A DNA stretch of 12,688 nt from Dehalococcoidia bacterium (GTDB taxonomy: Bacteria > Chloroflexota > Dehalococcoidia > Dehalococcoidales > JAUWZL01): positions 1 through 12,688 of the forward strand of contig JAUWZL010000012.1 in the NCBI GenBank assembly GCA_030615305.1, given 5' to 3'. Of the stretch, positions 612-4,233 are shown piece by piece. Each line of letters begins with the position of its first letter. Positions within the stretch are counted from its first letter, which is position 1. Made by a program: the position numbers and the translations under genes. The notes under the pieces were generated by a model. The model ran no database searches and was not told the DNA's origin. It worked only from the letters and a program-made list of their open reading frames with translations.

Positions 612-1667
612 TCATCGCGCGATCATTTTCTCCACCTCCCTCATCAGCACCTTAATAAAATCCTTTTCTTCCACCACGCCAATCTTTTTGCCCTTCTTAA
701 ACAGCACAGCTTTGCCCTTGCCGCAGGCGATGCCGATATCGGCGTCTTTGGCTTCGCCGGGGCCATTGACCACGCAGCCCATAACGGCTACCTTTATCGG
801 CTTGTCAATTTGCATCAGTTTCTCTTCTACCGCCTGGGCCAGCTCTATAATATCAACCTCAGCCCGGCCGCAGGAGGGGCAGCTGACCAGTATCGGGCCG
901 TGGCTGCGTAAGTCCAGGCTTTTCAGGATTTCATAGGCGGCGATTACCTCTTCTCTGGGGTGGGCAGATAGTGATACCCGGATGGTATCACCAATGCCCA
1001 TATAAAGCAGGGGGCTTATGCCGGCAACGCTGCGGATAATACCGCTTCTTGGGGGGCCGGCTTCGGTAATGCCGATGTGCAACGGGTAGGGCATCTTTTG
1101 GGCGATATCCCGGTAGGCTTCTATGGTAGTCGGCACATCAAAAGCCTTGAGGGACACCTTAATCAGGTCAAAATTAAGGCTTTCCAGAAGTTTTATCTGC
1201 TCCATTGCCACCGCTACCATCTGCTGGGCGGTGGTCATTTTGGGGTTGGCTCGCTTGGGCAGGCTGCCGGCATTTACCCCGATGCGAATGGGGACATTTC
1301 TTTCTCTGGCGACACGAACAATGGCGGTCACCTTATCCGGCTGGCTGATATTGCCTGGGTTTAACCGCAGCCCGTCAACGCCGGCAGAAAGCGCCATTAA
1401 GGCCAGGCGATAGTCAAAGTGGATATCAGCAATCAATGGTAGGGAAATCCCCCTTTATATAGCTGACAGAGCCTGGGAAGCTTTGGTATCAGGCACGGCG
1501 ACTCGCACCAGTTCACAACCATAACCTTCCAGCTCCTTAATCTGGGCGATAGTTGACATAACATCACTTGTGTCGGTCTTGGTCATGGACTGCACCACGA
1601 TGGGGGCGCCACCGCCAACGGTTACCTTGCCGATTTTTATTGCTTTAGAGACCCTACGCTGGTTCAT
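612..1667 (-). pseudogene. ispG: 4-hydroxy-3-methylbut-2-enyl diphosphate synthase IspG (GcpE), interrupted by an in-frame TAA
   Basis: IspG is the iron-sulfur enzyme that reduces MEcPP to HMBPP, the penultimate step of the MEP isoprenoid pathway. The ATG at 1667 overlaps the rseP stop by four bases (ATGA). Codons 1-70 match the IspG N-terminus (VQSMTKTDTSD, then CELVRVAVPD). Codon 71 is TAA (1457-1455). After it the same frame continues RGISLPLIADIHFDYR and runs intact to the TGA at 612, with GVDGLRLNPGNI, the cluster motif CPSCGRAE and the third ligand region MGCVVNGPGEA. Read through, the product would be about 351 residues, the usual size of the short two-domain bacterial form. In homologues the stop position is normally Lys within the helix between barrel strands 2 and 3, so a single change such as AAA to TAA explains it. 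Because both halves share one frame, an indel error cannot. It may be a real nonsense mutation, a strain variant, a base-call error or, less likely, a split gene. The identity of the gene is near certain; its functional state is open. Confidence 0.9.
1449..1454 (-). promoter_or_regulatory. Possible reinitiation site after the ispG stop
   Basis: Directly after the TAA the minus strand reads AGGGGG, a fair Shine-Dalgarno sequence, followed 12 bases later by an in-frame TTG at 1436-1434 that would begin a 274-residue C-terminal piece. The spacing is longer than ideal, and AGGG can pair with the CCCT just downstream in a tiny stem. The match may be accidental, since these bases also encode the expected Arg-Gly residues. 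Confidence 0.2.
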
Positions 1668-3894: not shown

Positions 3895-4014
3895 TTGCTA
3901 GATTTGGAGGAAGTATTCAAGGGGGAACCACACCTTGAGGGGCTATTGGTCAAGTACACTGATGGGTATGACCGCTTTTTCCTGCTTGAGGTTTGTGCTG
4001 CCAGCGTCACTTAG
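3895..4014 (+). other. Coding-like peptide on the plus strand, possible gene remnant
   Basis: In the gap between dxr and the small membrane gene, the plus strand has a reading frame of 39 codons ending in TAG at 4012-4014. Its composition looks protein-like: LDLEEVFKGEPHLEGLL, then VKYTDGYDRFFLLEV. The frame is open back to 3829 but contains no ATG or GTG. Only TTG at 3895 or 3904 could start it, with no ribosome binding site or promoter. It resembles the C-terminal end of a lost gene more than a working one. Chance is a real alternative at this length. I do not recognise the family. Confidence 0.2.
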
Positions 4015-4030
4015 TCGCGCGCGGCTAAGT
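4009..4030. repeat. Inverted repeat over the stop codon of the small membrane gene
   Basis: Six-base arms ACTTAG and CTAAGT flank a ten-base GC-alternating centre. It includes the stop codon of the minus-strand small gene and the TAG ending the plus-strand open frame. It could fold as a hairpin in either transcript, but no run of T follows on either side, so a classic Rho-independent terminator is not supported. On the minus strand it encodes the final LAARD of the small protein. Confidence 0.4.
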
Positions 4031-4175
4031 AAATCCCGGCTGCGGCAAGAAGTACGCCAATCCCCAATATCACTACACCATAGTAGCCTAACCCGCCATC
4101 ACGAGCGGCAAGGTAAGACAAGATGAACGCTACTGCGCTAACAGTAAATGGGGCAATTATTCGCACCGCTTTCAT
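4011..4175 (-). CDS. Small two-helix membrane protein of unknown function
   Basis: A 54-residue protein I do not recognise. It starts at the ATG at 4175, chosen because GGAGGT lies just upstream; a longer in-frame start at 4214 would put the -10 element inside the gene. The sequence holds two membrane helices, residues about 5-24 and 32-50, joined by the short turn RDGGLGYYG. Both helices end in the same hexapeptide, YLAARD, at 21-26 and 49-54, the second being the C-terminus. The codons of the two copies differ at four of six positions, so this is not a recent DNA repeat. The gene sits between cdsA and dxr with its own promoter and could be transcribed independently of the upstream genes. 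Whether it serves envelope lipids like its neighbours is guesswork. Tiny membrane proteins of this kind are often missed in annotation. Confidence 0.65.
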   Translation of the reverse strand: MKAVRIIAPFTVSAVAFILSYLAARDGGLGYYGVVILGIGVLLAAAGIYLAARD

Positions 4176-4179
4176 CGGG

Positions 4180-4185
4180 ACCTCC
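4180..4185 (-). promoter_or_regulatory. Shine-Dalgarno site of the small membrane gene
   Basis: GGAGGT on the minus strand, four bases before the ATG at 4175-4173. The spacing is a little short but the match is strong, and it decides the start of the 54-residue protein. Confidence 0.6.
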
Positions 4186-4204
4186 ACAGTCTGGTATCGC
4201 CAAC

Positions 4205-4233
4205 ACTGTAGCATGTGCCAGAGGTCAAGTCAA
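4205..4233 (-). promoter_or_regulatory. Sigma-70-type promoter for the small membrane gene
   Basis: Minus strand: -35 TTGACT (4233-4228), a 17-base spacer, and -10 TACAGT (4210-4205) preceded by TGC, an extended -10. Transcription would start near 4198, leaving a leader of about 22 bases that contains the ribosome binding site. It begins eight bases after the cdsA stop, so it can feed the small gene and possibly dxr-rseP-ispG. Confidence 0.65.

Follow-up and report, generated by a model that had tools for sequence, protein, structure and literature searches.

An in-frame stop codon in the ispG gene of a Dehalococcoidia-like contig most likely reflects an erroneous or rare base

IspG (GcpE), the flavodoxin-dependent HMBPP synthase, is represented by the profiles PF04551, NF001540, and TIGR00612 and has solved relatives (3noy, 4mwa, and 2y0f). 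From established knowledge of the MEP pathway, a truly dead ispG is expected to be lethal where this pathway is the sole route to isoprenoids. Consensus errors of a single base, as well as rare nonsense alleles, are also known from metagenome contigs. Here, we describe a member of the IspG family that has a stop codon within its reading frame. The window refers throughout to the whole stretch of DNA that was analysed, which is 12,688 nucleotides in length.

The ispG frame comprises 351 codons and a terminal stop. Its sole internal stop is the TAA at codon 71, around which the minus strand reads GCT ATA TAA AGG GGG ATT (1463-1446). An initial annotation had reported this TAA at residue 71, with the same IspG frame on both sides and no codon lost, and we recover each of these features in the DNA and its translation. 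The reading aligns with relatives across residues 1-348 without a missing codon, and both pieces match GcpE (Table 1); on these grounds, a chance open frame was rejected for this region. When translated with X at codon 71, the protein scored well above the curated whole-length cut-offs of NCBIfam NF001540 (464.3 versus 345 bits) and TIGR00612 (399.6 versus 280.25 bits). The conserved residues of the family are likewise present, including the C-terminal motifs SCPSCGR and GCVVNGPGEA. Their cysteines, which we take to be the cluster cysteines, are shared with the four nearest genome loci (L001-L004), and the motifs that follow the stop are intact, as first annotated. What the gene lacks is a single uninterrupted frame: as printed, it is an ispG gene broken at codon 71, and its enzyme product is putative.

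Table 1. Coordinates of the ispG frame, its two pieces, and associated signals in the window
Feature	Coordinates	Strand	Remark
ispG (gcpE), (E)-4-hydroxy-3-methylbut-2-enyl-diphosphate synthase, whole frame	612..1667	-	Translated with X at codon 71
In-frame TAA, codon 71	1455..1457	-	AAA in the 4 nearest DNA relatives
N-terminal piece, 70 aa	1455..1667	-	ATG start overlaps the rseP stop (ATGA); Pfam GcpE 2-64, E 2.2e-21
C-terminal piece (274 aa) as an ORF of its own, with TTG 1436 as a possible restart	612..1436	-	Pfam GcpE 72-343, E 1.6e-110
AGGGGG, Shine-Dalgarno-like, 12 nt between run and TTG 1436	1449..1454	-	The gene's own Arg-Gly codons

Among the best 120 of 7999 proteins scored, full-length relatives are mostly 348 aa long, as are the three nearest, which are 95%, 94%, and 92% identical. 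The C-terminus of the window's IspG (612-629) reads KMIAR and extends three residues beyond its closest relatives; all 11 relatives checked at this end stop at residue 348, five of them with ERF.

On its minus strand, the window carries purL, purQ, a LOG-type gene, rpsB, tsf, pyrH, frr, uppS, cdsA, a 67-aa ORF, dxr, rseP, ispG, and a lipoprotein-like ORF. Pfam or NCBIfam matches support rseP, dxr, cdsA, uppS, the LOG-type gene, and ispG; the names purL, purQ, rpsB, tsf, pyrH, and frr come from recognition of the translations. The nearest genome loci belong to Dehalococcoidia MAGs, at 83% protein identity for L001 and 80-81% for L002-L004. By these ispG locus and protein matches, the host can be assigned as an uncultured Dehalococcoidia-like bacterium. 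Gene order from frr through uppS, cdsA, dxr, and rseP to ispG is common to the window and L001, and the earlier placement of dxr two genes upstream of ispG holds. In comparisons with seven loci, rseP, dxr, cdsA, uppS, frr, and pyrH were free of stops in their matches to some of these loci, with pyrH and one dxr match cut off by locus ends; the seven other window genes were unmatched there, and most of them lie beyond what the loci hold. The ispG match in L001 contained one counted stop, located past residue 348, which is that gene's own end. With six comparable neighbour genes showing no other apparent error, the contig is not obviously poor, which weighs against a wrong base.

The 67-aa ORF between cdsA and dxr (4011-4214) resembles a small membrane protein and has no Pfam match and only one NCBIfam match, which is below the cut-off. 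The gap that it occupies differs among relatives: in L001 it spans ~630 bases and holds a 161-aa ORF on the opposite strand, and in L003 the match to cdsA abuts that to dxr. Directly after ispG lies the lipoprotein-like ORF of 186 aa (2-562), with no match in Pfam or NCBIfam; L001 carries a different lipoprotein-like ORF (160 aa) at the same place, which the window's ORF does not match at E 1e-5. Between positions 500 and 2000, the numbers of promoter-like matches (three; shuffle mean, 1.4) and terminator-like matches (two; shuffle mean, 1.7) were close to those of shuffled sequences, and every match lay on the opposite strand from ispG.

Apart from codon 71, ispG appears intact and constrained. 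All 162 alignment columns conserved at 97% or above (at least 97%) agree with the window's IspG, which has three rare residues, the same number as its nearest relative, P0002 (range of 1-12 over 15 proteins counted). Relative to L001-L004, dN/dS ranged from 0.068 to 0.123 before the stop (codons 1-70) and from 0.080 to 0.104 after it (codons 72-348), values that are rough owing to the high dS (0.88-1.64). An old pseudogene was rejected, as the gene has a single lesion and neither side of the stop shows decay or relaxed constraint. A very recent loss of ispG would look the same as the intact remainder observed here. We considered that the stop might be real and fixed, with ispG freshly inactivated in this lineage and its loss tolerated by means of a second ispG elsewhere, isoprenoids supplied by neighbours, or misreading of the stop at a low level. 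The base does stand in the consensus, and a recent loss would leave the remainder untouched; against this, the selection pattern lacks clear decay and no second assembly with the stop allele was found among the 80 related loci or in the fragment search described below, and we regard a fixed stop as unlikely. Changes private to the window numbered 16 synonymous and 20 nonsynonymous, compared with 39 and 30 for L001, in a count that favours conserved columns. This small lean toward nonsynonymous change may count against an error or a rare allele.

Across 80 related loci, taken as the best of the 543 relatives recovered, the aligned codon was always a sense codon and never a stop, with AAA in 33 and AAG in 25; the four nearest DNA relatives all have AAA. 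At the protein level, residue 71 was Lys in 102 of 120 relatives (the best 120 of 7999 scored), and otherwise Ile (13), Arg (3), Leu (1), or Thr (1). These counts agree with the initial proposal that Lys is usual at this position and that a single-base nonsense change at a Lys codon produced the stop, and they supply the comparison of close relatives that it had called for. The accompanying argument, that an indel error cannot explain the stop, is true of one indel; substitution errors remain, and they are the simplest cause.

Given that a list of full-length proteins cannot reveal a stop allele, the fragment search carries more weight. The 70-aa piece matched 96 proteins, among which the identical one was the window's own, and the protein cluster of this stop-ended fragment has a single member from one 12688-base contig, the window itself. 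With the 274-aa piece as query, the best 120 matches were all 312 to 391 aa long apart from the window's own. A search for ispG across 393 genomes of the class returned matches in 354, and all 150 match rows listed were free of internal stops. Viral contigs, which are uninformative on this point, had no exact match to a 32-base pattern spanning the stop. Literature searches on ispG nonsense changes, on premature stops and assembly errors, and on in-frame stops and sequencing errors returned nothing; one on IspG structure listed a malaria apicoplast review. The initial view of the stop as probable biology is not supported: neither the 80 loci nor the fragment search with its 96 matches yielded another, independent instance of the stop allele. 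Overall, the initial interpretation is partly supported.

A functional two-piece IspG was also considered, in which translation terminates at the TAA, restarts at TTG 1436 (18 nt past the stop) with help from the AGGGGG run at 1454-1449, and yields pieces that assemble into the barrel. The cut falls between the two GcpE profile segments, 2-64 and 72-343, and a Shine-Dalgarno-like run is present, although the run is normal coding sequence at that place, the nearest relatives having K/R-G codons there too, and its 12-nt distance to the TTG is long. The restart ORF begins inside the conserved PLIADIHF segment. None of the 80 related loci examined has a stop at this site, and among the 96 short matches just one besides the window's own finishes at column 70: P0196, which comes from a 594-base contig and has a divergent end. 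Mechanically, translation could restart at TTG 1436, but this is unsupported, and we consider a functional two-piece enzyme very unlikely. That the stop is real and IspG exists as polypeptides of 70 and 274 aa, which would make it a natural case of a split Fe-S barrel enzyme within the cell's only isoprenoid pathway, is highly improbable.

Recoding or programmed read-through of the TAA would fit with a frame that runs on past the stop under constraint both before and after it. Nevertheless, TAA terminates 5 of the 13 other window genes, including uppS, which aligns over residues 1-232 of 232 with L001 and L003. The stop is conserved in 0 of 80 loci, RNA folding at this site does not surpass that of shuffled sequences (z of -0.55), and the window contains no tRNA and no Rfam match at the gathering score. 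Since TAA terminates other genes of the window and the stop is not conserved in the 80 loci, recoding is extremely improbable.

The expected consequence of losing IspG depends on which isoprenoid routes are available. Each of ten related genomes encodes one ispH, and none of the ten matched the Pfam models for HMG-CoA synthase or reductase; among 14 control genomes, these models found matches in 4 and 5. A single unbroken ispG was also present in all ten, an observation that is not independent given that these genomes were picked for having an ispG match; that choice does not bear on the presence of ispH or the absence of the mevalonate markers. MEP is very probably the only isoprenoid route here, and it follows that a dead ispG should not be tolerated, in line with the initial annotation's reasoning that loss of IspG should block the pathway. 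The single ispG and missing mevalonate markers of these relatives weigh against a fixed stop. In its favour, some genomes of the class have no ispG match (39 of 393), and in another search, in which two of three genomes matched, G007, of the same family as G001, gave none. Incomplete genomes would explain these missing matches. A literature search on the MEP pathway in Dehalococcoidia returned nothing.

Taken together, these results suggest that the codon-71 TAA in this ordinary ispG is probably either one erroneous consensus base or a nonsense allele that is rare or very recent. The simplest account is a single substitution in one consensus, followed by a rare or recent nonsense allele. Judged from the assembled sequence alone, a wrong or rare base is the most likely explanation, and the stop itself is most likely no genuine feature of the biology. 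The gene would then be an ordinary ispG in the cdsA-dxr-rseP-ispG cluster found in relatives, the TAA would not be fixed in the living population, being either a wrong consensus base or a minor or recent allele caught by the assembler, and the working protein would be normal full-length IspG. If the stop were real, the locus would offer a natural test of a split IspG, or of whether the MEP pathway can operate when IspG is not intact. In its present state, it mainly illustrates how one doubtful contig base can mimic the loss of an essential gene.

In comparison with described systems, the window gene resembles IspG/GcpE in its full-length match, in its agreement at 162 of 162 near-invariant positions, and in a neighbourhood like that of related Dehalococcoidia MAGs. 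It differs in having an in-frame stop at codon 71, which is absent from all relatives examined. In its single substitution, the lack of a second example in the searches above, and the intact remainder of the gene, the locus resembles the consensus errors and rare nonsense alleles of metagenomes.
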